From an uncultured Bacteroides sp. (GTDB lineage: Bacteria > Bacteroidota > Bacteroidia > Bacteroidales > Bacteroidaceae), in NCBI RefSeq assembly GCF_963675905.1, contig NZ_OY780936.1, forward strand, positions 2,241,946-2,305,945: 64,000 nt of DNA, read 5' to 3'. Under the pieces are notes generated by a model. It ran no database searches, was not told the origin of the DNA, and saw only the letters and a program-made list of their open reading frames with translations. The translations under genes and the position numbers were made by a program. This document shows, one piece after another, positions 15,814-48,711 of this stretch. Within the stretch, counting starts at the first letter, position 1; each line of letters starts with the position of its first letter.

Positions 15814-16191
15814 TTAGTCATTTATTGTCATTTCATCCATTTTATGACCTTTGCGTAGGTAAAAACCACCTCCCATTAAACCTATAGAAATAGAAATTAT
15901 ACTAAAAATTAAATCAATTTGTTTATCTGTTACTGCTTGAGCTAATTCGGTAACACATAAAAAAATGGATATCCCTCCCAAAACGATTAAAAAAATGCCC
16001 CATACTTTTCTTTTTTTACTGGGTGGAGCAACAGTTGGGACTGATTCATCCTCACCACATAATGTGATTATTAAACCAATTATAGGTGTAAAGCAAAGAC
16101 AAAAAAATAGACTCCACCAATACCCCATTTTTCTGTTAAGTCCAAACAAAGCAAATAATAAATTCCAAACCAATCCGATAACATAGTACAT
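15814..16191 (-). CDS. Small multi-pass membrane protein
   Basis: 125-aa protein of unknown function. Hydrophobic stretches at residues about 2-18, 24-44, 62-80 and 90-107 suggest four membrane segments. A short charged loop (GEDESVPTVAPPSKKRK) lies between the second and third. It lies 10 nt downstream of the membrane-anchored nuclease gene on the same strand and shares its low GC content, so it is probably the last gene of that cassette. It resembles nothing I can name with confidence. In context it could be a membrane partner or immunity-type component, which is inference. Confidence 0.6.
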   Translation of the reverse strand: MYYVIGLVWNLLFALFGLNRKMGYWWSLFFCLCFTPIIGLIITLCGEDESVPTVAPPSKKRKVWGIFLIVLGGISIFLCVTELAQAVTDKQIDLIFSIISISIGLMGGGFYLRKGHKMDEMTIND

Positions 16192-16201
16192 AGTTGTATA
16201 T

Positions 16202-18775
16202 TTATATGTTGATTAATCTAATATTTTGCAGTATGTAATTTATTTCTTTATCCATAACAGGAACTTCAACGCAATGATATTGACGATAATCTGCATGAAG
16301 TATTACCAAATACATTTTATCTACAATTATATTATAACGTTTCTTCAAAATATATCTATAAATATTTTGTTGCAGTATATAATGATTATAAGCTGAATTA
16401 TCTAGATGACTTAGCTCACCAGTTCCATTCTGATAAGAATTAATTTGAATAGTAATATCGTTTAAGATAGATTCATTAATTATTTTTAAACTTCTCTTCC
16501 AATCATATGTAATATAGGAATCTCCTTCTTTACATAGCAAATCAATAGTTCCAGCAATTTTGTCCTCTTCATCGAAAATTCGCCATTCAGTTCTATATGG
16601 TTTGACCTCTTTTGCTTTTATAAAATTCTCAAAATAAGTCCATTCTCTATTGATGGTAATATCTTCTTGAATCTTTTTATGAATACCTGTAAATTCAAAA
16701 TGAAACATTTTGTCAACAGACTTTCTATCTAAAAAATAATTTTCTATTTGAGAATGTAAATATGTACCAATTTCTCTAGAAAGTGCCCCTTTATAATTCC
16801 ATGAATCAATAAACTCAATAGCAGGAATACCTGTTTGTAATTCTTTATATGAAGCACGATATAAGCTATCGAAGGCAGGAAAAAATCTTTCAACTAAATT
16901 ACTAACAGGTGTCATGTTTATCTTTTCTTTATAAATATAAAGATGTTTTTCTGGATAAAACTTAATATCTTCATCACGACTACTCCTGTTCAAAGAATTG
17001 AATAAGGTTAATTTTGCATTTCCCACTATGCAGTTTAAATTCAAAGGTTTTACCTCAGTAATATATTCTTTTTCTTTCTCATTAAGTATCAGATTTTCTG
17101 AATTATAGATTCTCGTTTCAGTTTCTCCGAAATTTCTTATATTCAAATAATTTTCACGTTCCTTTTGTTTTTCCCATTTTTGAGCATCTAACAAAGACCA
17201 TCGTTCTTGTTCATCAGGATTATCAATTAATAAGAGATTTTTTTCAAATATTGAGTTGGGATCAATTGCATGAATTATTTTAGCAATGTACCCCACGCAC
17301 TTATAAGACTGCTCAACAATCTGTTTCTCTGAGAAACGAATTACAATCCAACCAACATTGTTGATATACGTATCTCTTACATCATCACCGCAATCAATAA
17401 AATGTATAGGAACACGACTAAAGCCTGAATATGGTTCATCAATTTCAATATCAATTCTTATATTTAGTTTAGAATTCTTGCCAACAATAGCAATATCTGG
17501 TTCATATGGTCTACATCCTTCTTGAACAAGCAAACAAGCATCACCAAGAATTGAATAATTATTATTTAAATAAGCTTCTAATTGTTTTTGGAATGCTTCT
17601 TCCATTTTACCACGCCTTGCTATCTTTCCTTTACGATGTGGCCAAACAATACATCCATTTTGAGGATACTTAGTTACCGTATATCTCGAGATATTATTCT
17701 GTATGAATTCTTTAGGTACAGAATAACCAACATATGTTCTTTCCCCCGAATTAACGATAATAATAGGTTTAAATATATTTTCGCTTTTTACATCTTGGTC
17801 TTGAGGAGCCATTATAATACTAATTGGCAAGGGCTCATTTTTAAACTTTTCACGAATGAGATTAATAAGGTTCAGTTCTATCTGTTTTGAATCAATCGTA
17901 CCGATCGTATTTTGTGATATAATAGCTTTATCTTTATGACTTAAATCAAATGTATTTTGATTTTTTATAGGTTCCTCTTTTGAGGGAGAAAGTGAACCTT
18001 TATATTTAGAAAACAATATTAACAGATAACAAATAAATGCTATAATAAAAAAAACTATAATATAAAATATAGTCGAGGCGCTAATATCACTATCATTTAT
18101 TGCTCCTACATTTTGACATAAAGAAGTAGTGTCATCAACAGCCAGTTGCAGATTATTCCAACGAAATGAATTAATAATCTTTTCAAAATCAGCTGCCCAA
18201 ATATCAGCTTCACTCTCTTTATAAGACATTAGAATTTCAGCAACTTCGTTGTTATTAGCAAGATAGAATATTTTTACTTGAATTGGCGTTTTATAAGCAC
18301 CAACCCTTCTATATGAAGATACTAAAGCGCAAATATCCCCAATTTTTCGCCATTTAATACTTTGAATATTAAGCAACTTAGCATTCCTGACTTGAAATTG
18401 AATTTCTTCATTAAAGGTTTTATAGTCTTCTTGCGTTAAGGCTGGTGATTCATTGGCATTTAAGTAATCATTATGATTGCCCTTAGAATATGTAATGATA
18501 ATACGACAGTACTTATTAAATCCTTCTTTACTCATATTAGAAAGATTCTTTTGCTGAAAAATGATTATACTATCATTATATTTAGACTGTTCATATTTAT
18601 AGCTTTTCAAGTTAGTATAAGTATCTTCTTTGTGTCTTAACTCAATGGTAGAAGGAATTGAAATTTTGAAAGCACTATTGATTTCAAAATTACACCATTC
18701 AGTTTGTGAATATGAATCGCAAACTATAAAATATAGCAAGATTAAAAAGAAGTAACGTTTCATTTTATTATGCAC
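16202..18775 (-). CDS. Membrane-anchored protein with VSR/DUF559-like and RecB-family nuclease domains
   Basis: 857-aa protein of unusual architecture. Residues 1-24 are a signal peptide; about 25-215 form an extracytoplasmic domain like PsbP/DUF1795-type Bacteroides proteins. One membrane helix (about 235-257) follows. The rest should be cytoplasmic. Residues about 385-500 resemble a VSR/DUF559-type PD-(D/E)XK fold: EPDIAIV, then DIEIDEPY, then GWIVIRFSEKQIV. Residues about 600-857 are a RecB-like PD-(D/E)XK nuclease with every hallmark: GTYLH (H674), E730, GTID (D745), YDWK (D758, K760) and QQNIY (Q802/Y806). A start four codons later (MKRYFF) is equally possible. The frame overlaps the upstream gene by 8 nt. 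Function unknown; a membrane-tethered DNA-cutting defence effector is inference. Confidence 0.75.
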   Translation of the reverse strand: MHNKMKRYFFLILLYFIVCDSYSQTEWCNFEINSAFKISIPSTIELRHKEDTYTNLKSYKYEQSKYNDSIIIFQQKNLSNMSKEGFNKYCRIIITYSKGNHNDYLNANESPALTQEDYKTFNEEIQFQVRNAKLLNIQSIKWRKIGDICALVSSYRRVGAYKTPIQVKIFYLANNNEVAEILMSYKESEADIWAADFEKIINSFRWNNLQLAVDDTTSLCQNVGAINDSDISASTIFYIIVFFIIAFICYLLILFSKYKGSLSPSKEEPIKNQNTFDLSHKDKAIISQNTIGTIDSKQIELNLINLIREKFKNEPLPISIIMAPQDQDVKSENIFKPIIIVNSGERTYVGYSVPKEFIQNNISRYTVTKYPQNGCIVWPHRKGKIARRGKMEEAFQKQLEAYLNNNYSILGDACLLVQEGCRPYEPDIAIVGKNSKLNIRIDIEIDEPYSGFSRVPIHFIDCGDDVRDTYINNVGWIVIRFSEKQIVEQSYKCVGYIAKIIHAIDPNSIFEKNLLLIDNPDEQERWSLLDAQKWEKQKERENYLNIRNFGETETRIYNSENLILNEKEKEYITEVKPLNLNCIVGNAKLTLFNSLNRSSRDEDIKFYPEKHLYIYKEKINMTPVSNLVERFFPAFDSLYRASYKELQTGIPAIEFIDSWNYKGALSREIGTYLHSQIENYFLDRKSVDKMFHFEFTGIHKKIQEDITINREWTYFENFIKAKEVKPYRTEWRIFDEEDKIAGTIDLLCKEGDSYITYDWKRSLKIINESILNDITIQINSYQNGTGELSHLDNSAYNHYILQQNIYRYILKKRYNIIVDKMYLVILHADYRQYHCVEVPVMDKEINYILQNIRLINI

Positions 18776-19394
18776 TTTTACATAAAATTCCTTTTGAACT
18801 TATATATCTAAAATATGTCATAGATAAAAGATCTAATATAATTCCTAATATAAGAAACAGAAGATTCCCCCACAATCCATATAAACATAAATGCCAACCA
18901 TATAAAATCAAAAAAGAAGAAATAGTTGTTAGTACAAGAAAAAAGACAAAAATTGTAATGTTAAAAATTACAGCTAATAATTTACCAAAAAACATTTTAT
19001 AGATTGAAATCGATATTATTTGAATATGGGCAATAAATCCGTTAAACAATTCTATGGACACTCTAAAAGGTCTAAAAATCACAATTATACTAATAATCAT
19101 TATTGGAAAAACCATCCATCCAACAGCAGATAATTCCCCCTGCTGAATTGTTCTCAAATAAGGTTGTAAGTCTACTTCTATAAACATTGTTAGTATTAGA
19201 AAACTGAAAATGATATATAAAACTTTTAAGAATATTAATCCACATCCTTGTTTTTTCACTGGTTGCACATTTTCACTGTAAACATAGCAATATTTGTTAT
19301 CAAAAACAGGTTTATTCTCATAGTAATGACATATGAAAGATTCATTTTTTCTATCCATATGATTGCAAAATATGCATTGTTTTTTCTTTGCCAT
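18768..19394 (-). CDS. Zinc-ribbon, multi-pass membrane protein
   Basis: 208-aa protein that opens with a possible metal-binding cluster (C7 and C10 in QCIFCNH, then C22 and C36). About five hydrophobic segments follow over residues 48-200, including FLKVLYIIFSFLILTMFI and LLAVIFNITIFVFFLVLT. First gene of a three-gene AT-rich cassette; its stop codon overlaps the start of the dual-nuclease gene, implying translational coupling. I do not recognise a family. It may sense or localise the nuclease at the membrane; this is inference from gene order only. Confidence 0.6.
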   Translation of the reverse strand: MAKKKQCIFCNHMDRKNESFICHYYENKPVFDNKYCYVYSENVQPVKKQGCGLIFLKVLYIIFSFLILTMFIEVDLQPYLRTIQQGELSAVGWMVFPIMIISIIVIFRPFRVSIELFNGFIAHIQIISISIYKMFFGKLLAVIFNITIFVFFLVLTTISSFLILYGWHLCLYGLWGNLLFLILGIILDLLSMTYFRYISSKGILCKSA

Positions 19395-19595
19395 ATAATT
19401 ATTTTTTTATAGTATATATATCGATTTATGAAAACAATATTACAAGAGATAAAAACAATATAAGTTATTAATTCTGAGTAATAATATTATATTTAAGATG
19501 TTACTATCTTTAACCATATTTTTCAAATTCAATACAAATATAATATAAATTAATTTCAAAAGAAGAAAAAAAAATATTATTTTACTTTTTATTGA

Positions 19596-19751
19596 TTATA
19601 ATACCATTAGTTTTAAATTTATCAAACAACTATCCAAATAACTGAGTGAACGAAGAATACAGGATAATGATAAAAGCCCCATATCTAACAAGTCTTGCTG
19701 AGTAATATTGAGCAAGACTCTTCTATCTTTTATTATATCGTAGAAGTCCAT
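19596..19751 (-). pseudogene. Decayed hipB copy
   Basis: The frame starting at 19751 (MDFYDIIKDRRVLLNITQQD) is almost identical to the first 20 residues of the intact HipB at 21427-21633. It then loses the recognition helix and ends in unrelated residues. The promoter -7 element and the palindromic operator of the intact gene are both degenerate here. About 200 bp of very AT-rich, gene-free DNA lies on its left. Confidence 0.8.
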
Positions 19752-20110
19752 AAGTACATTATTTTGCCCATTTGAAGCAGAAAGAGTGTATTTTATTAGA
19801 TATAAAACAAAAAAGTGCAATATTCTGCATATTACACTTTCCTGTTTTTCTATATTTTAAATAAACTACAAGCTATACTTCCCCTCAATCTTAACAACAG
19901 CATTACCACCAAAAAGAACTTTACCATCTACAGCCTTAAGCTTCACAATATTAAAAATTCCAGTTATCCGTTCTGCTCAATAGAGACAGACGGACCATTC
20001 CAAAGTTGATTCTTCAGCATGTATCTCATTGCCTAATTGCCTGAATCTGTTGCTAGGGCTTCAAATAGCCAAACTTAGGAGCAAAATACGAGTCCTGATT
20101 TTATTTGATT
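19681..20110. repeat. Direct repeat of the hipB/phzF junction (copy of 21563-21997)
   Basis: About 430 bp matches 21563-21997 in the same orientation with high identity by eye. It includes the start of hipB, the hairpin at 19812-19840 (identical to 21694-21722) and the last ~245 bp of phzF. The right end of the match falls on the stop codon of hipT (20109-20111). Confidence 0.85.
19866..20108 (-). pseudogene. phzF 3'-end remnant
   Basis: Matches the final ~245 bp of the intact phzF at 21747-21997, including the same stop codon context, but with point changes and small gaps that break the frame. It has no 5' part; its left-out portion is replaced by hipT, whose stop codon lies exactly at the junction. 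Confidence 0.85.
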
Positions 20111-21113
20111 ACATATCAACAAAACGCTTCAACCGACTAAGCCGTTCTTCATAACTCCGCAAATACATTCGCTTTAGCTTATCATCAAGAAAAGAATTAC
20201 CTATCAACTCCATTACAAGTGGCTGAGAAGTAGTAAACATTTCCATTATTTTCTTTATCTTCTTCTCCGGCACTCCTATTCTGCACCCGAAATGAATAAA
20301 ATCATCACTGCAAGGATGTCCGGTTTGCTCATATATTTCAGAATATTCTTCTTTTGGGAATAAGCCACCTTCGAGTGCAAAATCGCTATCTTTTATGTGT
20401 AGAGAAGTATTCATTAAATCGTATGCCGGAGCTAAAAGATAGTCGCCATTTGGAGATTGCTGCAATGAAAAGTTCTTTTGGTGAGCATCGCCATTGGCGA
20501 ACAGATAATTAAATACTACCAACGTAAAAAACTTACTCATTTCAACTTGCCAGGCGGATACATTGTTACGGATTAACAAAGCCAAATCTTCATAACTACC
20601 GGTATATTTAAAGTCTTTACCATGGGTTACTGAAGTTTTACTGGCTAATGAAGAAAAATCTTCCTGATTTATTTTTGTTCCATCGGCTGCTATATCAAAT
20701 CGCTTGGTGATATATGCTATTTCTCCGTTACTAAAGAAAGTCAAAGCATTTTCTGCTGTTTTTATTTTGTAAACCTGACTGGCAATCTGCATCGTTAGAT
20801 GTTCATTTGCAGGAATCTGATTACGAAACTTTAAATGCTTATAGTTGGGTGCAGGTTTAATAATATAAGTTCCCTGAACTCCTTGCGGTGTAAGCACAAT
20901 CTTTCCTTTATCAACAATGGCCGATAATTTCTCTTGTACACCAGAGACTGAAATCTGATTTATGTAATCTGCAATATCATTTTCTTCTGCGTCATAAGAA
21001 AAATCGAGAATATGATTCACTGATTTTCCGTTAAAGACACGCTTCAGGCACAAAGGACTATATTTATCAAATCCTTCCGCTAAAGTACCCGGACAATATT
21101 TTATTTCTTTCAT
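20109..21113 (-). CDS. hipT: HipT-like serine/threonine kinase toxin
   Basis: 334-aa kinase of the HipA family lacking the usual N-terminal HipA subdomain, as in E. coli HipBST. Visible elements are a glycine-rich loop with two serines (S55-V-S57-GVQEKLSA, comparable to the autophosphorylated S-x-S of HipT), the catalytic loop NGDAHQKNFS (D209) and the metal-binding YDLM (D232). Such kinases phosphorylate aminoacyl-tRNA synthetases to halt translation. Its ATG overlaps the stop of the small HipS-like gene by 4 nt. The stop codon is formed at a recombination junction with a phzF remnant, so the extreme C-terminus may differ from homologues by a few residues. Confidence 0.88.
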   Translation of the reverse strand: MKEIKYCPGTLAEGFDKYSPLCLKRVFNGKSVNHILDFSYDAEENDIADYINQISVSGVQEKLSAIVDKGKIVLTPQGVQGTYIIKPAPNYKHLKFRNQIPANEHLTMQIASQVYKIKTAENALTFFSNGEIAYITKRFDIAADGTKINQEDFSSLASKTSVTHGKDFKYTGSYEDLALLIRNNVSAWQVEMSKFFTLVVFNYLFANGDAHQKNFSLQQSPNGDYLLAPAYDLMNTSLHIKDSDFALEGGLFPKEEYSEIYEQTGHPCSDDFIHFGCRIGVPEKKIKKIMEMFTTSQPLVMELIGNSFLDDKLKRMYLRSYEERLSRLKRFVDM

Positions 21114-21430
21114 ATCTTCTTAACCGTTATTGCACCAATAGTATCTGTATGCGCTGTTGCAAGCAATAATCCAAAATAATCTTCTTCATCAATACGAAGT
21201 GTCTGGCACTGAATGGCTTTATTTGCTCCTTCAGACAACATATTGAAAAAGAAAGAGAAAAGGGTTTCCGATCTATATTCCTGTTTTGTCTTTGGAAGCG
21301 TTAGACTGATTGCCGGTAAACAGGAATCCTGAAAGTATTTATCGTCATAACGGAAAATGTATTCTCCATTATCATTCTCGGTAAGAAGTCCGGCCAGAAT
21401 CTTATTGTAATATACTTCTGCCTGTCTCAT
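21110..21430 (-). CDS. hipS: HipS-like protein (HipA N-terminal subdomain)
   Basis: 106-aa protein corresponding to the N-terminal subdomain normally fused to HipA (motifs AEVYYNKILAGLLTE, YFQDSCLPAISLTLP, FSFFFNMLSEG). In the E. coli three-gene HipBST system the separate HipS, not HipB, neutralises the kinase. It overlaps hipB upstream and hipT downstream by 4 nt each (ATGA), so all three are translationally coupled. Assignment as antitoxin rests on that analogy. Confidence 0.82.
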   Translation of the reverse strand: MRQAEVYYNKILAGLLTENDNGEYIFRYDDKYFQDSCLPAISLTLPKTKQEYRSETLFSFFFNMLSEGANKAIQCQTLRIDEEDYFGLLLATAHTDTIGAITVKKI

Positions 21431-21633
21431 AATTTAGGTATTTCTCTAACTTTCATTATCAACTCAAGTCCTAGTGCATCGGTTATTTTTCTAAGAGTAT
21501 CGATAGATGGATTACCGTTACCTTTTTCTATAGCTTTTATGGTCCGAAGACTAACGCCGGAAATATCTGCCAGATCTTGCTGAGTAATATTGAGCAAGAC
21601 TCTTCTATCTTTTATAATATCGTAGAAATCCAT
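21427..21633 (-). CDS. hipB: HipB-like XRE-family repressor
   Basis: Short DNA-binding protein with a lambda-repressor-like helix-turn-helix (LNITQQDLADISGVSLRTIK, then AIEKGNGNPSIDTLRKITDALGLEL). I chose ATG 21631-21633 (MDFYDIIKD, 68 aa), not the longer frame to 21702. The longer frame would run through the phzF terminator, a palindromic operator and a consensus -7 element. It should autoregulate the operon through the palindrome at 21669-21689. Confidence 0.85.
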   Translation of the reverse strand: MDFYDIIKDRRVLLNITQQDLADISGVSLRTIKAIEKGNGNPSIDTLRKITDALGLELIMKVREIPKL

Positions 21634-21659
21634 AAGTGCATTATTTTGCCCATTTGAAG

Positions 21660-21689
21660 CAAATATACGTATTATAACGTTTATAATAC
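21660..21689 (-). promoter_or_regulatory. hipBST promoter and palindromic operator
   Basis: A perfect inverted repeat, GTATTATAA / TTATAATAC with a 3-bp spacer (21669-21689), lies directly upstream of a consensus Bacteroides -7 element (TATATTTG on the minus strand, 21660-21667). The element is 27 nt before the chosen hipB start. Position and symmetry fit a HipB-type operator. Confidence 0.75.
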
Positions 21690-21690
21690 C

Positions 21691-21722
21691 AAAAAAGTGC
21701 AATATTCTGCATATTACACTTT
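21691..21722 (-). terminator. phzF terminator hairpin
   Basis: Inverted repeat AAAGTG.AATAT / ATATT.CACTTT around a TCTGC loop (21694-21722), followed on the minus strand by six T. It separates phzF from hipB. Confidence 0.75.
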
Positions 21723-38982: not shown

Positions 38983-39435
38983 CTAAATTAATAAATTAAC
39001 CTCGTCCTTTATCTCTTGATAGCAGTTATCCATGTAACCTATCAATTTATAGAACAGAGTTTCTTTATCTAGATTTTCAGCCCAATCTTTTAGTACACCG
39101 AATCCAGCATTAGCATACTTCTCAGCGAGTGCATATACCTCGTCACGATTACAAATTTCGTCAATCTGTTCAGTATTGTCCTTCAAATTTTCGTCAAAGT
39201 ATAGGCACGATAGGAGCGCTTCGTAATTGCCAAGATACTCAGCACGGACAAATGAGTCAACTGTTTGAGGGGCAGATGGTTCTTTCCCTTCCATCTTAGC
39301 TATCGCTATTGCGAAGCTATACAAGTCTGCGCGTGTGGCGGCATTCTTGTGAAGCTGGAAATACTTGCTTTTCTCCAAATCTGCTATAAAGCCGTTATCG
39401 TAAGCCTTTGCTATGTTTAATGCTACTTTTGCCAT
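38983..39435 (-). CDS. 150-aa protein in the dndE position of a DndD operon
   Basis: Mostly helical small protein (AKVALNIAKAYDNGFIADLE, TRADLYSFAIAIAKMEGKE, FYKLIGYMDNCYQEI). It follows the DndD-family gene by 6 nt, the place DndE occupies in DNA phosphorothioation operons. A stretch ATRADLYSFAIAIAK could correspond to DndE's RIALALSL-type helix, but I cannot claim homology. Last gene of the seven-gene operon. Confidence 0.6.
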   Translation of the reverse strand: MAKVALNIAKAYDNGFIADLEKSKYFQLHKNAATRADLYSFAIAIAKMEGKEPSAPQTVDSFVRAEYLGNYEALLSCLYFDENLKDNTEQIDEICNRDEVYALAEKYANAGFGVLKDWAENLDKETLFYKLIGYMDNCYQEIKDEVNLLI

Positions 39436-39441
39436 AATTAA

Positions 39442-41421
39442 TTACTTTATTACAGTTACACTATCTTCAAATGACAATTTAGTAAATGTGCTATACTGGT
39501 TTTGCAAAGCTCCACTAACCTTTTCGTCAAATTCAGTAGGAGTGAATGTAAGAATCACCTGCTTAGACTTTGCAATCTCGCAGAGAGTATTGATAAAGTT
39601 TATGCGGTTCTCATCATCAACACGTCCAATAGGAGTATCAATAAACAACAATGAATCGTGCATAGACACCTTCTGCAAAGCAAGCGTAAACGAAAGTGCA
39701 AGCAATGCACGTTCGGCTGCACTACATGAGCCCAATGTCTGTGAACCATAATTATCAAGCAAACGGAAAGTATAGTCTTCGAGTATCTCTACTTTTGAGA
39801 ACGCATCTTTCTTCCAAAGAAGTTTTGAGAAAGTATCAAAAGTTTCATTCTCCATCTCGTTACGACTCTCTTCAAGTAACTCAAGACGTGTCTCCTTGAG
39901 AATATTACGACACTTCTTGCAGTATTCTGCTTGTTCGCTGATTCTCTCAAGTTGCTTATTCTTATCTATGAGTGATTTCAGTTTCTTATTCTGATTCACA
40001 TACTTAGTATTAAGTTCATTTCTATGAGCCTCTTCTACACCCTTCTTCGCTACAATCTTATCGCGTTCAGCCTTGAATAACTTCTTCTGTTCAATGGCTT
40101 TGGTAATAGCCTCTGTATTAGGAATGTTCATCAAGTAAGTATTGAGTTGCTTCTCCTCGTCAAGATAATCATCATATTGCTTGCTCAAAGAATTGATTTC
40201 ATTCATCATAGCCACACGTTTGTCTTGGTAGTTGGCAATCTTTGCTAGATACTGACGAAGGAATACAACAGCCTTATTAAGAAGAGCCGATGTTTCAGAA
40301 GATACCTCCAACTCCTTTTTCAACTCATCAATAAAGTTGAATGAATGGTCACTCAATGGCTGGTCGCACACACAACAATGCTTATGATGCTCAATTGAGT
40401 CAAGCAAAAACTTATCAATACGCGGAGGAAGTTTTCCATGCTTATCTTGCTCCTGTATGTACTTATATAGGCTTTTGATTGCAGGATACATAGCAAAGCA
40501 CTGTAAATACTCGCGTACGAATACCATCATTTGGTCTTTCTTCTGATCTATAGTAACCTTAAGGTTGTCAATCAATGTTTCTACTTCTTTGAGACGAGCT
40601 GTTTTCTCTGAAACATGTATATGGCCGCTTATGGTATTGTCGAGTTCTGCAATCTCATCATCACACTTATGTATCTGTGTTGTAAAAGTATCAACAGCTG
40701 CAGTAGATGTGTCAATAGCCGACTGAATGTTATCCAAATCCTTTTGAGCTGTAGCAATATCCCTCACTGAGGAATTTGCGATCTGAGGATTTAGAACACC
40801 AGTCAAGTAATTATTGAAGGCAGTTTCTGCTTTCTCTATTATTTTTGCTTGAGTAAGTTCCTCAATACCATTCTTTACATTTTCAAGCTGACCTGCTTTG
40901 AAATAATCCTCCAAATGTTCACCGTCAAAGAAGATGTATTCATGAATCTCTTCAGGTACATTCTTTTTTACCAAAGATAGTGTTTCCTCTTCTGAATCTA
41001 CAGAGTTCCACTCTCCATCTTTGAAATGCATGATAGAAAATTCTGTGCTAACTGGTACCACTGCCTCGTTTGTTACATTGAACTTACCTACACGCTGAAA
41101 TCTAACTTTCTCTGCTGAGTCGTCTGAAGTAAACAATATTCTGACAAAAGCATCGCCTATAGCACTACCACCATCAACAAGATGTTCACGTATTTCTTGA
41201 ACCTGTAAGTTGTTAAGAATCGGACTCGCAGTATATTTGTTACCTAGGTGCATCTCCGAATCGTAGAGGCACCAAGTTATGGCATTGAGCACATTTGTTT
41301 TACCTACACCATTCTTGGCATAGATTATATGTAGGTCATTCTGTTCTGCAGCACATGAAAACTTAAATTGCAGATTTCTGTACTGTCGGAAATTCTGAAT
41401 ATCTATACTCTCTATTCGCAT
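39442..41421 (-). CDS. DndD-family SMC-like ATPase
   Basis: 659-aa SMC/RecF-type ATPase of the DndD family. Walker A is AKNGVGKTN (residues 35-43). A long coiled-coil middle carries a zinc-hook pair HCCVCDQ (C349, C352) and another C501-x2-C504. The ABC signature region is LGSCSAAERALLALSF (563-578), and Walker B is LLFIDTPIGRVDDENR (D595). In Dnd systems this ATPase drives the DNA-modification step or nicks DNA. The canonical partners DndA, DndB and DndC are absent. Instead a radical-SAM protein and a PLD-helicase fusion precede it. It starts 5 nt after a 49-aa gene. Confidence 0.88.
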   Translation of the reverse strand: MRIESIDIQNFRQYRNLQFKFSCAAEQNDLHIIYAKNGVGKTNVLNAITWCLYDSEMHLGNKYTASPILNNLQVQEIREHLVDGGSAIGDAFVRILFTSDDSAEKVRFQRVGKFNVTNEAVVPVSTEFSIMHFKDGEWNSVDSEEETLSLVKKNVPEEIHEYIFFDGEHLEDYFKAGQLENVKNGIEELTQAKIIEKAETAFNNYLTGVLNPQIANSSVRDIATAQKDLDNIQSAIDTSTAAVDTFTTQIHKCDDEIAELDNTISGHIHVSEKTARLKEVETLIDNLKVTIDQKKDQMMVFVREYLQCFAMYPAIKSLYKYIQEQDKHGKLPPRIDKFLLDSIEHHKHCCVCDQPLSDHSFNFIDELKKELEVSSETSALLNKAVVFLRQYLAKIANYQDKRVAMMNEINSLSKQYDDYLDEEKQLNTYLMNIPNTEAITKAIEQKKLFKAERDKIVAKKGVEEAHRNELNTKYVNQNKKLKSLIDKNKQLERISEQAEYCKKCRNILKETRLELLEESRNEMENETFDTFSKLLWKKDAFSKVEILEDYTFRLLDNYGSQTLGSCSAAERALLALSFTLALQKVSMHDSLLFIDTPIGRVDDENRINFINTLCEIAKSKQVILTFTPTEFDEKVSGALQNQYSTFTKLSFEDSVTVIK

Positions 41422-41425
41422 ACGG

Positions 41426-41575
41426 CTAAACTGATTTCATGATTTTTTCAATTATTCTCTTACCTTGACGACCCTCCTCAATACCAGAGAGCACATTCTC
41501 GATATTTTGTTTCATAGCGATATCAGACTTAGTCTTTTCCGCTATCTTTATGCGTATCTTTTTATTAATTGCCAT
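41426..41575 (-). CDS. 49-aa basic small protein
   Basis: Short frame (MAINKKIRIKIAEKTKSDIA, then QNIENVLSGIEEGRQGKRII) fitted exactly between the helicase stop (41577) and the DndD start (41421), leaving 1 and 4 nt. Basic and amphipathic. Its tight packing argues that it is translated. Function unknown; possibly a subunit that links helicase and ATPase. Confidence 0.65.
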   Translation of the reverse strand: MAINKKIRIKIAEKTKSDIAMKQNIENVLSGIEEGRQGKRIIEKIMKSV

Positions 41576-41576
41576 A

Positions 41577-43697
41577 CTAATCTAAAGTATTTATTATTTT
41601 TAGTGCATCTATTGAATTTATTGCATTCTCAGCTATTTCTCTAAGGCGAATTTGTTCCTTAGCTCTAATCTTACGTTCGAGTTCAGCCACATCATCATCG
41701 AGACCTGCTATTGTATCTACACATATGTCATATAGGTTCGCAAACTTTTTATCAGGTGCTTGTCTAATGATACGACCGATACGTTGAACATACTCGCGTG
41801 GATTAGTACTTGATGCCATTAGAATGCCTACATCAGCCGTTGGAATATCAATGCCTTCGTCCATACATTTTATTGCAACGAGAGCTTTATAGACTCCTGC
41901 TTTAAATTTGGCTATTATAGTTTCACGCTCAGACTTATTATTATATCTGCGTTCAGGCTTAGTGCCCTCTTTTTCAGTTAGCTTATGAGAGATAACACCT
42001 CGTTCATTTAATATACCTAAAACGCTCTGTATCTGCTGTGGAGAAACAAATATTATGAGATTTTGTATGCCACCTTTAGCATCTAGTTCATCCAAGATAC
42101 GTTCAAGTTCTTCATATTTGCTTTCTGCATTCTTAATAATATTTGCACGCTTCTCCATTAAGCGTTCAAGACGTAGAGCTGCATCAGCATCATGATCCTT
42201 CATTCGCCATATCTTACTTATACGATTTGAAACTGATTGGTACTCCTTCGTTTCATCACCATTAAGCCTAACTGTCGAAATAAGGTAGTTATAGTTAACA
42301 AGAAAGTGCTTCCCGGTCATGGGGTTATACTCTGTTAACGCATCTTTGATGGTAAACTCGAAGTTCGCATTGCCATAATAGTCTACAAGTCTTGCTGTTC
42401 CTGAATCATCAAACCAACGACTAGGAGTTGCACTCAAACCTATTCTATATTTATAAATATCTAATAGTGCATTTTGTAGCTTCCGTGCTCCAAGCCAATG
42501 AGTTTCGTCACCCACAAACAAAACTTCAGTGTCGGGGTGTAGACAGGTTGTAAAAGCTCCTATAAATTTCTCTGATGAAGCCGTAATATGTGTCGTGTAG
42601 AATACACAATGATCAGCTAGTCCAGCTCCATTTTTATATAATAACTTTGTCAGAAGTCCCTCCCAGTTAACTACAGAACCATCAACGACATCACTCTCAT
42701 CGAAGCATAAGCCCAGGGCATCTACCTCCTCTTTCCATTGCTTTGACAATGTATTTTGAGGTGTTGATATAATGGTAATTAACTTCTTTCGAGTTTGATT
42801 TAAGTACTTAATACCAGCAATGGCCGTACGTGTTTTTCCTGTACCTGTTGCCATTTCAAATAACAAACGGTAGCTATTTTCTTTCCATTTATTAAGTGCA
42901 TCAGCTTGGTAGAAAAACAATTTCTTGTCTTGTTTAAAATTAAAGTTCTTGAGTTTAAGTGTACGGTACTTCCTCAAAGAAATACTCTCAGTTTTGAAAT
43001 CTGAAGAGTAACGTACGATATCTGCCTTCACTGCACTTGGAAGATTGAATACCTTCACATTCTTACGCTCTCCGTTCCAAATTTCGTCAAAGCGCTGTTT
43101 GTCACGCAGATAATAATCATGTGATTCAGACCATTCTTTAAAAACTTTAAACTCTTCGTCGTTGTTTACCCATGCTGCGGCAGTCTCGTTTATTGAGCCA
43201 CTAAATGAAAGTTCATTGCCGTCTTTATCACGTAGTATGCCAACCTTCTGGTGAAACAATCCTTTTTCCGAGATTGTTTCGTTATCACAGATCGAGCCAT
43301 CTTCATTGAAAACGATGGCAAGCTTCATTTCCAGTAAGCCATTTGCCAACATCCATCCAAGGGCCTTTACATGATTTTTTTCAAACTCTACCTCTAGGTT
43401 GTCTTTATCAATACCAAAATCTCTAAGAGTGAGTTCGCTACTGTCTTCAGCTATTTTTTTGATGACTTCAAGGTCGTCGCTATTCAAACGAGGGCTTGTA
43501 ATGAGTCGCATCTTTCCACCATTCTGAATAAAGTCAGAAAGCCCACGAGCTGCAACAGCCATGGACGAAGATGCAAAGAAACCAGCAATGCGGTCATAGA
43601 GGACTGATGCACCTAAAACAGGAACATAATAGTCCTCTATGATATCGTCAACACCCGACTCATAGCAAGGTTTGATATTTAGCTCCTTAAAGTTCAT
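41577..43697 (-). CDS. PLD-like nuclease / SF2 helicase fusion
   Basis: 706-aa protein. Residues about 1-215 are a phospholipase-D-like nuclease domain with one HKD-type motif, FHQKVGILRDKDGNELSFSG (H149, K151) followed by SINETAAAW. Residues about 260-700 are an SF2 helicase: Walker A MATGTGKT (282-289), DETH box in VGDETHWLG, SATPS motif, and motif VI YVQRIGRIIRQ. It resembles restriction-type helicases such as those in Mokosh or DISARM-like contexts, but with other partners. Overlaps the upstream radical-SAM gene by 11 nt. Probably the DNA-degrading or remodelling arm of the operon. Confidence 0.85.
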   Translation of the reverse strand: MNFKELNIKPCYESGVDDIIEDYYVPVLGASVLYDRIAGFFASSSMAVAARGLSDFIQNGGKMRLITSPRLNSDDLEVIKKIAEDSSELTLRDFGIDKDNLEVEFEKNHVKALGWMLANGLLEMKLAIVFNEDGSICDNETISEKGLFHQKVGILRDKDGNELSFSGSINETAAAWVNNDEEFKVFKEWSESHDYYLRDKQRFDEIWNGERKNVKVFNLPSAVKADIVRYSSDFKTESISLRKYRTLKLKNFNFKQDKKLFFYQADALNKWKENSYRLLFEMATGTGKTRTAIAGIKYLNQTRKKLITIISTPQNTLSKQWKEEVDALGLCFDESDVVDGSVVNWEGLLTKLLYKNGAGLADHCVFYTTHITASSEKFIGAFTTCLHPDTEVLFVGDETHWLGARKLQNALLDIYKYRIGLSATPSRWFDDSGTARLVDYYGNANFEFTIKDALTEYNPMTGKHFLVNYNYLISTVRLNGDETKEYQSVSNRISKIWRMKDHDADAALRLERLMEKRANIIKNAESKYEELERILDELDAKGGIQNLIIFVSPQQIQSVLGILNERGVISHKLTEKEGTKPERRYNNKSERETIIAKFKAGVYKALVAIKCMDEGIDIPTADVGILMASSTNPREYVQRIGRIIRQAPDKKFANLYDICVDTIAGLDDDVAELERKIRAKEQIRLREIAENAINSIDALKIINTLD

Positions 43698-45813
43698 AAT
43701 CTATAGACTCTTTTGCCGTTTCAATTATGAGATTAACGTTAGGACGTCTTCTAACTTGAGTTGTCTTCGATAGAATGGACAATATCTCTTCGCGTGTTTC
43801 ATCTGTAGCTCCCGCCATAAAATAATTCTGAACGTAAGGGATATACAGACATAGTTTTGGAATAATAGCCTTCATATCTCGCTCCTTTAGTTTTATAAAG
43901 TTTGATCCCAATGCATTTGCATTTGCTCTGCATTTTGCGAATCTACACAATCCTAATTGAGCAGCTGTCTTCATATGGTTTTCGCCATATTTTTTATCAG
44001 CAACCTCTTTGCGTTTATCCGAACGAAGCATATAGCCCATCTGATTATAGTCAACATCTGTCTTGCCACAATTAGCGAGTAAGTATGGAACACTATAATA
44101 TGCGTCCTTGAAGTCACTAAACTGTGATGGGTCAGCCTTTGTTATTTCGTATGGCTTAAAGTCATCTTTGATAATTTCAAGTATCTCACTACACTTATAT
44201 TTCTTCAGCACTTCGAGCAGAAGCTTACTCTTATTATCATCTTCAAGCAAACTATCATCTGCATGAGTAAAGAATGCCTTTAACAGAACACGCTCATTTA
44301 TTGGATTATCAATAACGTCATTCCAATACGCTTCATCCATTGTGTACTTATTTTCATCCATAACAATTTCAGTATCTCGTTCCCAAAGTGTAGAATCAAT
44401 CATCTGTTTAAATGATAGATTGAAGAAACTCAAGAAGATCTCTTTATGCTCTTTAAATCTGTTTAGAAAGTCAAAAATAGACTTCAATGGAGTCGTCATA
44501 GTTACGTCGTTATAGTAACCATTATTGTAATCCCCCATGAATTCTTCGTATGTTTTTAGTCTATCATGCTTAATGCCAAGAGTATGTTCCTCCCAATATG
44601 TCTGATTTTTATAGCAGAATTGCCAAAATGATAGACTTCGATAGAATCCTGGCTGATTACACCATCTAGCTATCTGTACATAAATATTTGGCATAGGAGC
44701 TTTCTTATAATCTTCATGACGCATGATGTAACCAAGGCATCCATAGCGCATCAGTACTGTAATACGCATGAATATCTCTGCAATGTCAAGCTGGAATCTC
44801 TTATCATCGTGTGGTGTTTGTTGGAATCCACAAAAGACATAAAACTTTGTTTCTCTCTTTGGACAATAGAACTTCCAAATCTTCAATGCTTTTTCGATAA
44901 GTTTTCTATCAAACCAGTTATCAAAGGCAAAGATAAAGTCCCCATGATAGTTTGCACTAGCCAATTTCTTCGCCATATCTTCGCCTCGTTTATTTTGAGC
45001 AAGAAGACGTTCGTCTAGGCCTTGTCTGAATTGGAAAGGCCTGCCTGTTGCAATCAGTTCATCAAGCAAAGGTTCCCAATAAGGTGATGCCAAAAAATTA
45101 TCATCCCAAAGATAAATGAAAGGTCTCTTCAACTTTCCATTTTCATCTCGTTCCTCGTCAAGGAAGTCTTTAAGGTTAGAATATGGCATTACCTTACGCT
45201 CAAGTTTGTTTACGCAAAACGGACATTTACGAAAACAACCGCGAGTAAGGAAACCGATAGAATATTCTTTATAATCCTTGTAGTATGAAGCTGATGATTT
45301 TATGTTCTCCATTATACCCACAAACTCATCATAAAGATGATATTCAGGCATCTGGGTACGCATATCTATACCTTGTGTTCCCAATTTATTAGTAAAGATA
45401 TTGAAAAATTCATCTTTTTCCAATCTTTCCATATCTTCTGCACGTTTCTCGGCAAAACCTTGTTCTACCGAGAGATTCGCATAGCTTCCCGTTCCACCAA
45501 TACGTACACGTTTTTTTAGTTTTTTATCGGATATAAGAACAGAAAGAAGCAAAGGTGGATCGTCATAGGTAAATGAGAATACAACTGAAACATAGATATG
45601 ATCAAGTTGCATCAAATCCTCAAACTTACTTTCGTTTGTAAGCAATTCATATGTACTCACCTCATCTTGATTTATGGCGTCACTCTTTCGTACAAAGCCA
45701 TTGTCGCGAAAGAAACCAGCTATCTTCAGTAAGGCAAGATTTGGGTGACGCGTACCATTGCAAAGTAAGTCCGCATCAACTAATCCTATTTTATATATTT
45801 TCTTTTTAGCCAT
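43687..45813 (-). CDS. Radical-SAM protein, B12-binding-like N-terminus
   Basis: 708-aa protein. The [4Fe-4S] motif is C193-FRK-C197-PF-C200 within FLTRGCFRKCPFCVNK. The preceding part (IGLVDADLL, HPNLALLKIAGFF, RVRIGGTGSYANLS) resembles the B12-binding radical-SAM family found in phage and metagenome genomes. So do the later IYLWDDNFLASPYWEPLLDE and FRQGLDERLLA. The C-terminal ~300 residues are unfamiliar and include C-rich GLCRFAKCRANA. Its place at the head of a DndD/helicase operon suggests modification of DNA or of a nucleotide precursor; that is inference. It overlaps both neighbours (8 and 11 nt). Confidence 0.82.
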   Translation of the reverse strand: MAKKKIYKIGLVDADLLCNGTRHPNLALLKIAGFFRDNGFVRKSDAINQDEVSTYELLTNESKFEDLMQLDHIYVSVVFSFTYDDPPLLLSVLISDKKLKKRVRIGGTGSYANLSVEQGFAEKRAEDMERLEKDEFFNIFTNKLGTQGIDMRTQMPEYHLYDEFVGIMENIKSSASYYKDYKEYSIGFLTRGCFRKCPFCVNKLERKVMPYSNLKDFLDEERDENGKLKRPFIYLWDDNFLASPYWEPLLDELIATGRPFQFRQGLDERLLAQNKRGEDMAKKLASANYHGDFIFAFDNWFDRKLIEKALKIWKFYCPKRETKFYVFCGFQQTPHDDKRFQLDIAEIFMRITVLMRYGCLGYIMRHEDYKKAPMPNIYVQIARWCNQPGFYRSLSFWQFCYKNQTYWEEHTLGIKHDRLKTYEEFMGDYNNGYYNDVTMTTPLKSIFDFLNRFKEHKEIFLSFFNLSFKQMIDSTLWERDTEIVMDENKYTMDEAYWNDVIDNPINERVLLKAFFTHADDSLLEDDNKSKLLLEVLKKYKCSEILEIIKDDFKPYEITKADPSQFSDFKDAYYSVPYLLANCGKTDVDYNQMGYMLRSDKRKEVADKKYGENHMKTAAQLGLCRFAKCRANANALGSNFIKLKERDMKAIIPKLCLYIPYVQNYFMAGATDETREEILSILSKTTQVRRRPNVNLIIETAKESIDYEL

Positions 45814-46120
45814 ATATTATATTGCTGTAATCCACTTTGGGTAAACAAATCAATACGTCATAATCCGCTAATAGGAGAATGTCGTTTTCATTTGACCACC
45901 CAGCTAATTCTTCATAACCTTCATCAATAGCAAATTCACGTCTGACAACACGTACGCATGGAGACTCAGAAACAACCTTCTTTATGAATGGTAGAGTTTC
46001 TTCATCCGCCACACTTAGCAATTCATCTTCTTGATACACCACCTCACGTTCTTTAAAACGCGTGACAATCTGGCGTATTTGGAATTTGGTTAATTCAAAA
46101 TTGTTATTATTTTGCAGCAT
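45806..46120 (-). CDS. 104-aa hypothetical protein of the radical-SAM/DndD operon
   Basis: Unknown function. It begins with a helical, charged part (FELTKFQIRQIVTRFKEREV) followed by alternating strands (SPCVRVVRREFAI, DILLLADYDVLICLP). Overlaps the XRE gene by 14 nt and the radical-SAM gene by 8 nt, so it is coupled to both. No domain recognised. Confidence 0.6.
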   Translation of the reverse strand: MLQNNNNFELTKFQIRQIVTRFKEREVVYQEDELLSVADEETLPFIKKVVSESPCVRVVRREFAIDEGYEELAGWSNENDILLLADYDVLICLPKVDYSNIIYG

Positions 46121-46367
46121 AATGTTCCTTTATCATATCATACGGATTCATAACATCCAGTTCCATATTACTATTTAAGAGTGCTCTTACATCTGTGTTT
46201 AGAGCATCAGCGATTACGAATAACTGCTCGATAGATGGCTGCATTTTATTGTTCGCCCACCTACAAACAGTAGCTTCAGTTTTCCCAATTTTCAAAGCAA
46301 GCCATTTATTAGTAAGCCGCTTTTCAGCAAGGACTACTTTTATTCGATTGAACACTTTTCTCTCCAT
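46107..46367 (-). CDS. XRE-family transcriptional regulator
   Basis: 86-aa DNA-binding protein with an XRE helix-turn-helix (LTNKWLALKIGKTEATVCRW, then MQPSIEQLFVIADALNTDV). I chose ATG 46365-46367 (MERKVFNRIK); an in-frame longer start would place the predicted -7 element inside the leader-proximal region. First gene of the operon, probably its autoregulator, which is typical of defence cassettes that must stay quiet until needed. Confidence 0.85.
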   Translation of the reverse strand: MERKVFNRIKVVLAEKRLTNKWLALKIGKTEATVCRWANNKMQPSIEQLFVIADALNTDVRALLNSNMELDVMNPYDMIKEHYAAK

Positions 46368-46855: not shown

Positions 46856-46863
46856 TACCTTTG
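46856..46863 (+). promoter_or_regulatory. -7 element of the helicase-like gene
   Basis: TACCTTTG, exact match to TAnnTTTG, 27 nt before ATG 46891. It supports that start rather than the TTG that lies within the element itself. Confidence 0.7.
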
Positions 46864-46890
46864 CGCCCTTTATTAACCAAAATAAATTTA

Positions 46891-48711
46891 ATGCTACGAG
46901 AAAGAACTATCAAGATTCACGAAAAGGAGTATCTGACTGATGCGTTGAAGCGCGAAGGTTTTGCGGCTCTTCCTACTAATTGTGTAATTAACAAGGTACT
47001 TCCGGGACTGGGGGCTACTTACTGCGAACTTACCTCACCACGAAAGTCTATCATCATTGAACCAAATGTGCCGGTTATTGTGGATAAAGCAAAGAAGCAC
47101 AAGCATACGCTGGCTGTTCACAAAGGGGTAATGGTGCAACATATAACAGATTTCCTTGAAAAGAACGGGAAGCAACATTACAAGATTCTCACCACTCCGG
47201 AGAGCTTCCAGAAGATAAAAGAGGCTATGGAGGCGCTGCAGATTGATATGTACAGCGAATGTTTTATGTTGTTTGATGAGTGCGAGAAGCTGGTGCAGGA
47301 TGTTGATTACCGCAATACTATTCGCGAACCGATGAATGATTTCTTCCTTTTCGAATCGAAAGCAATGGTTTCTGCTACTCCGATTGTTGCCAATGATGAG
47401 CGATTTGTGAATCATGGTTTCAGGATGCTACGCATTGAGCCTGCTTACCAGTACAAAAAGAAGATGCAGCTTATCACAACAAATAATATCTGCGAATCGC
47501 TTTCTGAATTACTGGGACGAATAAGGCTGAACAACAGATCTCGGGTATGTATCTTTGTGAATTCTATTGATACCATTGATTCATTGTTTATTGATATCCC
47601 TGATATTCAGGATTCTTATACTTTCTGCAGTGAGGAAGGAACTTTTAAGCTGTGGAAGGCAGGTAAAAGAAAGAAGTCGACTATGATTGACGAACTGATG
47701 CCGTTTAACTTCTTTACAAGTCGTTTCTTCTCGGCTGTTGATATCATGTCGGACGTTGCCCCGCATGTGATTATGATTTCGGATATGTACGGTGCTCCAC
47801 AATCCGCTATCGATCCTAAAACGGAAGCAATACAGATATACGGAAGATTCAGAAAAGGGGTTCGGAGCTTTACTCACATCTGCAGTATTCGTCCCAGTCT
47901 TGATTACAAGAGCGAAAAAGAGATTGACAGTTGGCTGGAAGGTGCCGGGAAAGTGTACAATAACTGGAAGCTGAGTTTAAAAAGTACTTCCAATGATGGT
48001 GAACGTACTCTGCTAAGAGAGGCAATGCTCAATAACAGCTACCTTCCTTATCTGGACGACAAGGGAAACCCTGATCCTTTTCTGATTGCCAATCTTTATG
48101 AGGCAGAGAAGGTAAAGTCACTCTACACCTATCCTTCTAATCTTTACGAAGCTTATAAAAGTTCTCATTTCTTTGATGTGGATATAGCTCAGGAGCAACA
48201 TCTGTTCAGTGATGACGACCGACTTGCTTTGCATCGTCAACGTACCCGCAAGGGACGTTTTGCTGTGCTGCTTATGCGGTTCGAAGCGCTAGAAAAGCTA
48301 AGAATGAATCCTGCTGAGAAATCACAGAAAAAATACCAGCATTTACTGTCACGATTAATATCCAGCAAGGAGGACAGAACTCTTTACGAATGTTACGAGA
48401 AAATGGGTAGTGGTTATATCCGCGAGAAAATTGATTATAACCTGAAAGCAATGGAACGCTCTATTGACAAGGTTAACGATAATATAATCAAGAACTCCGG
48501 CCCTATGAGAAAGTCTATCCACAGGATGTTTGATGAAAGTACGCTTTATTCGAAAGGTGAAATAAGTGCCATTCTTACTCAGGCTTACAAGCGAAAAGGA
48601 TTATTTGTTAATAAATCTATATCGAGCACAGAAATTAAGCGTTGGTATGACATAGAAACGGTCCGTGGGCATGGTTTCGACCAAATTAAACTGCTGAAAA
48701 AGAGGTATTAA
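46891..48711 (+). CDS. Helicase-like SF2 protein with altered Walker A
   Basis: 606-aa protein, the only convincing plus-strand gene here. It has SF2-like landmarks: a DEAD/DEAH-type box FDECEKL (D129-E-C-E132), a motif III-like VSATPI (161-164) and a motif VI-like IQIYGRFRKG. The expected Walker A reads LPGLGATYCEL, so the invariant lysine of GxGK(T/S) is replaced by alanine. Similar proteins occur in Bacteroides near mobile DNA, but I cannot name the family. The C-terminal half is charged and helical. It stands alone, with its own promoter, and converges on the SusC/D operon with a shared terminator. Confidence 0.75.
   Translation: MLRERTIKIHEKEYLTDALKREGFAALPTNCVINKVLPGLGATYCELTSPRKSIIIEPNVPVIVDKAKKHKHTLAVHKGVMVQHITDFLEKNGKQHYKILTTPESFQKIKEAMEALQIDMYSECFMLFDECEKLVQDVDYRNTIREPMNDFFLFESKAMVSATPIVANDERFVNHGFRMLRIEPAYQYKKKMQLITTNNICESLSELLGRIRLNNRSRVCIFVNSIDTIDSLFIDIPDIQDSYTFCSEEGTFKLWKAGKRKKSTMIDELMPFNFFTSRFFSAVDIMSDVAPHVIMISDMYGAPQSAIDPKTEAIQIYGRFRKGVRSFTHICSIRPSLDYKSEKEIDSWLEGAGKVYNNWKLSLKSTSNDGERTLLREAMLNNSYLPYLDDKGNPDPFLIANLYEAEKVKSLYTYPSNLYEAYKSSHFFDVDIAQEQHLFSDDDRLALHRQRTRKGRFAVLLMRFEALEKLRMNPAEKSQKKYQHLLSRLISSKEDRTLYECYEKMGSGYIREKIDYNLKAMERSIDKVNDNIIKNSGPMRKSIHRMFDESTLYSKGEISAILTQAYKRKGLFVNKSISSTEIKRWYDIETVRGHGFDQIKLLKKRY

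Follow-up and report, generated by a model that had tools for sequence, protein, structure and literature searches.

Background

To our knowledge, the self-marks used in restriction comprise methylated bases and elaborated forms of them, 7-deazaguanines and phosphorothioates. Here we describe an operon of seven minus-strand genes (38983..46367) in a 64,000-nucleotide (nt) stretch of DNA from an uncultured Bacteroides sp. (contig NZ_OY780936.1, positions 2,241,946 to 2,305,945; hereafter the window), in which a radical S-adenosylmethionine (SAM) protein, here called rSAM, stands directly in front of a known restriction cassette. All evidence is computational.

The closest described system is DndCDEA-PbeABCD of Haloterrigena jeotgali, the restriction half of which was named PbeABCD by Xiong et al. 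(PMC6459918) and has the order pbeA-pbeB-pbeC-pbeD. In the re-annotation by Rakesh et al. (PMC10853773), PbeA is an HKD nuclease-SF2 helicase, PbeB a small protein, PbeC a CxC ABC ATPase and PbeD a cognate of DndE. Rakesh et al. argued that PbeA cleaves DNA (PMC10853773); Xiong et al. reported that Pbe blocks replication without cleavage (PMC6459918). Systems that combine a CxC ABC ATPase and DndE with DNA methylases share a core with the operon studied here, and in these examples cytosine methylases stand in place of the phosphorothioation genes (PMC10853773). The stand-in in our operon is a radical SAM protein instead, and that paper mentions radical SAM twice, both times with regard to DndC.

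As regards the second restriction module of phosphorothioate systems, DndFGH, a review states that it can be toxic when the modification genes are missing, and that the clusters for modification and for restriction are sometimes exchangeable (PMC12707154). A radical SAM mechanism has been proposed for DndCDE-IscS (PMC9239176), such a mechanism has been doubted (PMC10853773), and radical SAM defence proteins exist in the form of viperins (PMC12926258). In the parts of the related literature available to us, radical SAM thus comes up for DndC and the Dnd mechanism or for viperins, and not as a front end of PbeABCD. Among the papers listed in literature searches, which left aside supplementary files and the earlier survey of ABC ATPases where CxC systems were first described, none reports a radical SAM protein with PbeABCD, DndFGH or DISARM-type cassettes.

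Results and Discussion

Structure of the operon and identity of the Pbe cassette

The operon is probably a modification-dependent restriction system, in which PbeABCD is combined with rSAM as the presumed writer of a self-mark on host DNA. Its seven genes are present as a preliminary description of the window, made from the letters alone, had listed them: open reading frame (ORF) calls and translations show tight packing, with overlaps of 14, 8 and 11 nt and gaps of 1, 4 and 6 nt between neighbours, and the CxxxCxxC motif of rSAM (CFRKCPFC) lies at residues 193-200. The defence character proposed there is likewise supported, with rSAM in a place often taken by a modification enzyme; PADLOC names the PLD-helicase PbeA (2e-203) and the ATPase PbeC (6.7e-83). 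The same description held that no named system has this gene set, which is not right, since four of the seven genes are, judged by their sequences, the named cassette pbeA-pbeB-pbeC-pbeD, a phosphorothioate-linked restriction module. We assign the back four genes to this cassette because their order fits PbeABCD and because the last of them matches proteins that occupy the PbeD position elsewhere.

The first of these four, PbeA (41577..43697, 706 amino acids (aa)), joins a PLD (HKD) nuclease domain to an SF2 helicase, with the motifs HQK...GSIN at residues 149-170, GTGKT at 285, DETH at 397 and QRIGRIIR at 638. The NCBIfam model 'DNA phosphorothioation system restriction enzyme' matches it at 325 bits, under the cut-off of 600 bits. 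The strict form of the HKD pattern was found in 0 of 19 rSAM-linked PbeA, so that counts refer to a looser form, present in all 19 and in 10 of 13 other PbeA. PbeB (41426..41575, 49 aa) has no family-model match in Pfam, NCBIfam or PADLOC and is identified by its location between pbeA and pbeC and by its size. PbeC (39442..41421, 659 aa) is a coiled-coil ABC ATPase with GVGKT at residue 38 and a CCVC zinc-hook-type motif; its PADLOC match to PbeC extends over residues 1-630 and exceeds that to DndD (4.7e-44), so that PbeC is a more exact name than the former label 'DndD-type'. Similarly, the 150-aa protein said to be in the 'DndE position' is better described as PbeD (38983..39435): against PbeD-position proteins of ordinary Pbe loci it reaches a profile-profile (hhalign) probability of 97.8 over 100 columns, while its match to DndE is weak (24.7) and ordinary PbeD scores 0.7 against DndE.

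The gene order is identical to that of H. jeotgali, where PbeB and PbeD measure 66 and 152 aa (PMC6459918). The differences are the lack of a DndC match in the genome to which the window belongs and, in its stead, the presence of rSAM with a 104-aa protein and an XRE regulator. Among the PADLOC matches listed for the seven operon proteins there is no DndF, DndG, DndH, DrmA or DrmB, and the sole Dpd match is a weak one of the PbeA helicase to DpdE (0.0028). A match to a known subtype, which the preliminary description would have taken as a refutation, is half given: the core of the operon corresponds to a known phosphorothioate-associated cassette, but its radical SAM front end was not found in the literature searched. 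What is new is this front end (XRE, 104-aa protein and rSAM), i.e. PbeABCD with an unreported putative writer.

One radical SAM family in front of four cassettes

A scan of genome contigs yielded 123 relatives of rSAM, of which 80 were kept and read; two of these (L091, L092) were dropped for want of a full rSAM ORF in the ORF set, leaving 78 usable loci. Near-copies remain among them (e.g. L051/L053 and L076/L077), so the counts are not independent. The cassette beside rSAM is Pbe in 17 loci, DndFGH in 12, Drm in 28 and ParB-SNF2 in 13, with none of these in the remaining 8. The carriers include cultured organisms, among them Paraprevotella clara YIT 11840 and Prevotella sp. tc2-28 (both rSAM-DndFGH), Bacteroides ndongoniae Marseille-P3108T (rSAM-Pbe) and Dysgonomonas sp. 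520 (rSAM-DrmA/B). The joint occurrence of rSAM and a DndD-like ATPase, on which the preliminary description had built, accordingly holds beyond the window and exceeds chance: there are 17 further genome loci in which pbeA and pbeC come after rSAM, and rSAM is found with DndFGH, DrmA/DrmB and ParB-SNF2 as well. CxC or CxxC occurs within the middle third of all 19 rSAM-linked PbeC; BLASTP finds PbeB homologues (ORFs of 49-59 aa) in 10 of the 17 loci, with unmatched ORFs of 57-63 aa in the PbeB position in 5 more; and a PbeD homologue is present in 13 (14 at a looser cut-off).

In 69 of 70 loci the gene immediately before the cassette is either rSAM or a separate copy of its C-terminal domain, at gaps of -50 to +57 nt (Pbe 17/17, Drm 28/28, DndFGH 12/12, ParB 12/13), the exception being L086, where the ParB cassette comes first and rSAM after. 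In the rSAM-Pbe loci the distance from pbeA to the preceding gene ranges from -43 to +33 nt.

PADLOC confirms the cassettes in representative loci (DndF 5.1e-90, DndG 8.5e-35, DndH 0; in L069 DrmA 1.1e-178 and DrmB 7.7e-16). The label 'Drm' was given to any locus with a homologue of a NERD-UvrD helicase, a ~794-aa protein or DrmB; a DrmA homologue is present in 21 of the 28 loci and DrmA and DrmB together in 19, and some loci end early. The rSAM relatives thus precede DrmA/DrmB-bearing cassettes as known from DISARM. Unlike DISARM, L069 possesses rSAM, the NERD-UvrD helicase and the ~794-aa protein, with no methyltransferase named among its operon genes. The ~794-aa protein, which belongs to no known family, lies between the NERD-UvrD helicase and DrmA in these rSAM-headed DISARM-type cassettes (L069 13132-15516 and homologues). 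The ParB-SNF2 cassette consists of ParB, a 138-aa protein, an SNF2 helicase, which is like ZorD/DpdE in PADLOC, and a second ParB. This set (L098 11159-15714 and homologues) is conserved in 13 rSAM loci, often with a winged helix-turn-helix gene, and its PADLOC kinship is just partial, to Zorya/Dpd helicases and ParB-type proteins.

Exchange of cassettes around rSAM

On trees of the cassette proteins, the rSAM-linked members fall together. The rSAM-linked PbeA (19 rows, namely 17 genome loci, the window and one viral contig) form one clade (100/100) that spans Bacteroidota, Bacillota and Actinomycetota; a Pbe pair that lies near rSAM on the other strand (L102) falls outside it. Likewise, the rSAM-linked DndH (12 rows from Bacteroidota and Verrucomicrobiota) form one clade (100/100). 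The rSAM tree itself is different: over its 79 rows and five labels (including 'other') at least 27 changes of cassette label are required, against the 4 that would suffice. Shuffled labels give a mean of 44.4 changes, i.e. the labels are also clustered. For example, the rSAMs of L071 (Pbe) and L085 (ParB) are sisters (100/100), and those of L035 and L036 (both Drm) belong, with starred support, to the clade that contains the rSAM of the window. Cassettes have thus been exchanged around rSAM repeatedly. Readers that settled once, and writers traded among them, are the pattern that a shared mark predicts, and the cassettes may therefore be interchangeable readers of one kind of writer.

The place of the modification genes

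Controls came from a class sample of 395 genomes, three of which carry DndFGH, and from plasmid loci chosen by hand (9 of 26 records with PbeA-like matches and 3 of 10 with DndH-like matches). In these loci the place before the cassette is often taken by modification genes. Of the three class-sample genomes with DndFGH, two (L187, L188) have dndC-dndD-dndE before dndF; among Pbe loci, a methyltransferase overlaps and directly precedes pbeA in L197, a phosphoadenosine phosphosulfate (PAPS) reductase abuts pbeA upstream in L201, and dndBCDE lies upstream of the cassette in L196. The rSAM relatives occupy the dndCDE place of L187 and L188, before dndF-dndG-dndH, and no DndC or DndE was found at the 12 rSAM-DndFGH loci. 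Indeed, BLASTP gave 0 matches to DndC, PAPS reductase or DndE in 80 rSAM loci. Over whole genomes, 30 of which carry rSAM-Pbe or rSAM-DndFGH (the window's own genome, 17 and 12), DndC exceeds the cut-off in one; this one is the genome of L083, with DndC on another contig, and two weak matches fall below the cut-off. By contrast, DndC exceeds the cut-off in all three class-sample genomes that have DndFGH and no rSAM at the locus. For DndFGH alone, the comparison is 0/12 rSAM genomes against 3/3 controls (Fisher p 0.002).

The same difference is seen in the neighbourhoods. A DNA-methyltransferase or DndC/PAPS-type gene lies within 5 kb of the cassette in 8 of 12 non-rSAM Pbe loci and in 1 of 29 rSAM-Pbe or rSAM-DndFGH loci (Fisher p 4e-5); counting a weak match to class-I methyltransferases in L094 as well raises the latter to 2/29 (p 2e-4), and within 8 kb the counts are 9/12 and 3/29. 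There are few controls, some of them picked by hand, and the majority of the rSAM genomes are metagenome-assembled. Methyltransferases were screened for with eight reference proteins and two motifs; two of the references are without these motifs, in one case owing to an out-of-frame excision, so that other methyltransferase types could be missed. In the control L195 a motif match inside an annotated cas3 gene was excluded from the counts.

These comparisons support the view that rSAM occupies a place which in other loci often belongs to an enzyme of phosphorothioate or methyl modification. The proposal of the preliminary description, that a radical SAM enzyme stands in for the sulfur-transfer chemistry, is well supported by the position in this slot, the missing DndC and the scarcity of modification genes nearby. 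Since DndFGH can be toxic without modification genes, the rSAM-DndFGH genomes without DndC should moreover need another protector. Three Pbe loci (L190, L192, L195) and one DndFGH locus (L203) speak against this pattern: they have no modification gene nearby, and the slot may thus simply be empty. Alternatively, the operon might be an ordinary solitary PbeABCD that uses a distant modification system or none, with rSAM as a passenger. Solitary cassettes are certainly common, with 320 of 553 published PbeAC pairs (58%) lacking dndCD within 10 kb (PMC6459918) and 4 of our 12 control Pbe loci lacking a modification gene within 5 kb. A passenger would, however, hardly be expected directly before pbeA in 17 of 17 loci from at least three phyla and one PbeA clade, nor would the same family be expected before three other cassettes, and we regard this explanation as improbable.

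L200 (12158-18401) and L201 (3208-9383) have Pbe cassettes beside a cysteine desulfurase, DUF4007, a ~1100-aa protein and PAPS reductase, possibly another sulfur-type modification module.

Relatives on viral contigs

An earlier viral scan with P0005 alone gave 0 matches. Of 151 relatives on viral contigs 80 were kept, five of which (L117-L120, L143) are without a full rSAM ORF; removing redundancy at 88% identity reduced the 75 usable loci to 48. The methyltransferase references derive partly from the Oscillospiraceae phage NatCom_21982, in which rSAM is flanked by a ParB-N6/N4 methyltransferase on one side and a C5 methyltransferase on the other, and the comparison was for this reason made by distance within those families. 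In the 48 loci, 12 C5-methyltransferase ORFs lie within 2 kb of rSAM and 0 at 2-10 kb, while N6/N4-methyltransferase ORFs number 21 within 2 kb and then 1, 3, 1 and 1 in the following bins (6 at 2-10 kb). At least one methyltransferase ORF is found within 2 kb of rSAM in 23 of the 48 loci, and 6 ORFs within the same distance are SAM-synthetase-like (one of this family confirmed by Pfam). The phage neighbourhoods thus give a link between rSAM relatives and DNA modification that does not depend on the cassettes of bacteria.

These findings also bear on the idea that the product of rSAM is a small molecule or modified nucleotide, which would signal to the cassette or act with it in the manner of viperins. 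Radical SAM defence proteins of this kind exist (PMC12926258), but rSAM is common to four unlike cassettes, several of them kin of modification-dependent systems, its phage relatives adjoin DNA methyltransferases, and family scans of the operon reported no nucleotide-sensing domain. A viperin-like product is hence quite unlikely, and the nucleotide-based antiphage response considered in the preliminary description finds no support, as no pointer to it was found.

A contig called viral in IMG/VR (L107 4735-11346) carries rSAM, PbeA and PbeD, and the system may thus travel on mobile elements. A sequence deposited as an unverified bacteriophage scaffold (L017, MT837356.1) contains rSAM, a NERD helicase and a 794-aa protein, and from this gene content may in fact be bacterial, a defence locus wrongly filed under phages. 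A Rhizobium plasmid (L021 4347-9596) has a row of a DEAD helicase, ParB-N, DGQHR (DndB-like) and a distant rSAM.

Fold and possible chemistry of rSAM

Sequence-family searches with rSAM (43687..45813, 708 aa) gave almost nothing outside PHROGs (Pfam 0.0079 at best, PADLOC 0, NCBIfam 0), and a profile search of the PDB (E up to 1) returned one row, an unrelated parvalbumin. The protein has the features of the radical SAM superfamily, i.e. CxxxCxxC, kept in 157 of 157 rows, and a partial TIM-barrel fold. Residues ~5-395 comprise an N-terminal Rossmann-like domain and the radical SAM barrel. In its model rSAM is similar to AprD4, MiaB and cobalamin-dependent methylases, and the predicted structure is compatible with a cobalamin-dependent radical SAM methylase, an enzyme type that binds cobalamin in its N-terminal domain, at identities to MiaB/RimO, AprD4, TsrM, OxsB and CysS of at most 17%. 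In comparison with MiaB/RimO, AprD4 and the cobalamin-dependent methylases, rSAM has an extra C-terminal domain and is without conserved N-terminal cysteines. None precedes C193 in 54 rSAM rows, with C18 present in 14 of the 54; C359 and C385, in turn, are conserved in 51/54 and 53/54 rows.

In MiaB and RimO, three conserved cysteines of the N-terminal domain bind a second cluster. MiaB-like sulfur insertion by rSAM is weakened by the lack of such cysteines, while sulfur chemistry in general may still apply. The same lack argues against RNA (e.g. tRNA, cf. MiaB) as the substrate, with a cassette that would monitor or exploit the change in RNA. Furthermore, the partners of rSAM are nuclease-helicases and a DNA-scanning type of ATPase, and a role of RNA seems very doubtful to us.

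The C-terminal domain (residues 481-708, 43690..44373) bears a KYGENHxK motif, is winged-helix-like and in other loci stands as a separate gene of ~230 aa. Winged helices of the FokI/SspB/DndG type prompted a comparison with DndG, in which no relation was seen. SspB and DndG are absent from the VIA-align matches listed for the C-terminal model, an absence that is not evidence against kinship.

With regard to the product, we lean slightly towards a new DNA mark written by rSAM, most likely on a base or sugar carbon, which at least four cassettes would read and which phages would place on their own DNA. The odds of a new mark are lowered because a radical SAM mechanism has already been proposed for DndCDE-IscS (PMC9239176). 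In a less novel form of the same idea, rSAM may make the usual phosphorothioate by another route.

The genes upstream of rSAM

The operon begins with an XRE/Cro-type helix-turn-helix protein (46107..46367, 86 aa from the ATG at 46367; Pfam HTH_26 6.9e-7, HTH_3 2.5e-6), a probable autoregulator. A similar XRE gene lies just upstream of rSAM in 4/17 Pbe, 8/28 Drm, 6/12 DndFGH and 0/13 ParB loci. The following 104-aa protein (45806..46120) belongs to no named family (0 matches in Pfam, NCBIfam or PADLOC) and is likely a partner of rSAM. Its homologues lie upstream of rSAM in 19 of 78 loci (Pbe 4/17, Drm 9/28, DndFGH 5/12, other 1/8, ParB 0/13), and in L028 the family is fused to the rSAM N-terminus. 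Since it recurs with Pbe, Drm and DndFGH and occurs in this fusion, the 104-aa family goes with rSAM and not with one cassette.

This family raises the question of whether rSAM could act on a small protein of the operon (the 104-aa protein or PbeB), arming or restraining the system in the style of the maturases of ribosomally synthesized and post-translationally modified peptides. The presence of two small genes in the operon, as well as the fusion in L028, would agree with this. On the other hand, proteins in the PbeB position also occur in Pbe loci without rSAM, none is found between DndFGH genes, and the 104-aa family is upstream in just 19 of the 78 loci, for which reasons such a substrate appears to us rather implausible.

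A possible mode of action

In a modification-dependent restriction system of this kind, rSAM, possibly together with its 104-aa partner, would add a small chemical group to host DNA at particular sites by radical chemistry. The winged-helix-like C-terminal domain, or its separate copy where present, might guide the placement of rSAM, and the group transferred could be of methyl or sulfur type, a guess from the fold. PbeC and PbeD would scan DNA, and PbeA would act on unmarked DNA by cleavage or replication block, with PbeB as a putative regulator and the XRE protein limiting expression. The same kind of writer would be plugged into DndFGH, DISARM-type DrmA/DrmB and ParB-SNF2 cassettes, and phages would use rSAM relatives on their own DNA. 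If true, an rSAM writer common to several modification-dependent cassettes would be a further means of marking DNA, would explain the persistence of DndFGH and Pbe cassettes in genomes without DndC, and would mean that the enzymes which write DNA marks and the cassettes which read them are modules exchanged separately. If a mark were shown, the writer itself would be of a new kind.

Genomic surroundings in the window

In relatives from the same genus, the flanks of the operon region are just ~66-72% alike or barely match. On the opposite strand, a 616-aa ORF (46861-48711) adjoins the operon; it has no significant Pfam match and no NCBIfam or PADLOC family. Elsewhere in the window, a minus-strand set of three genes (20109-21702; a helix-turn-helix protein of 91 aa, 106 aa and 334 aa) is like HipA/HipB-type toxin-antitoxin systems, with weak matches to PADLOC PDC-M03A/B and NCBIfam HipA. 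Next to it lies a low-GC patch (16001-20000; the GC fraction of its two 2-kb bins is 0.295 and 0.265, and elsewhere 0.35-0.44), which encodes an 857-aa protein with a C-terminus weakly like Cas4-type nucleases and a 208-aa neighbour.

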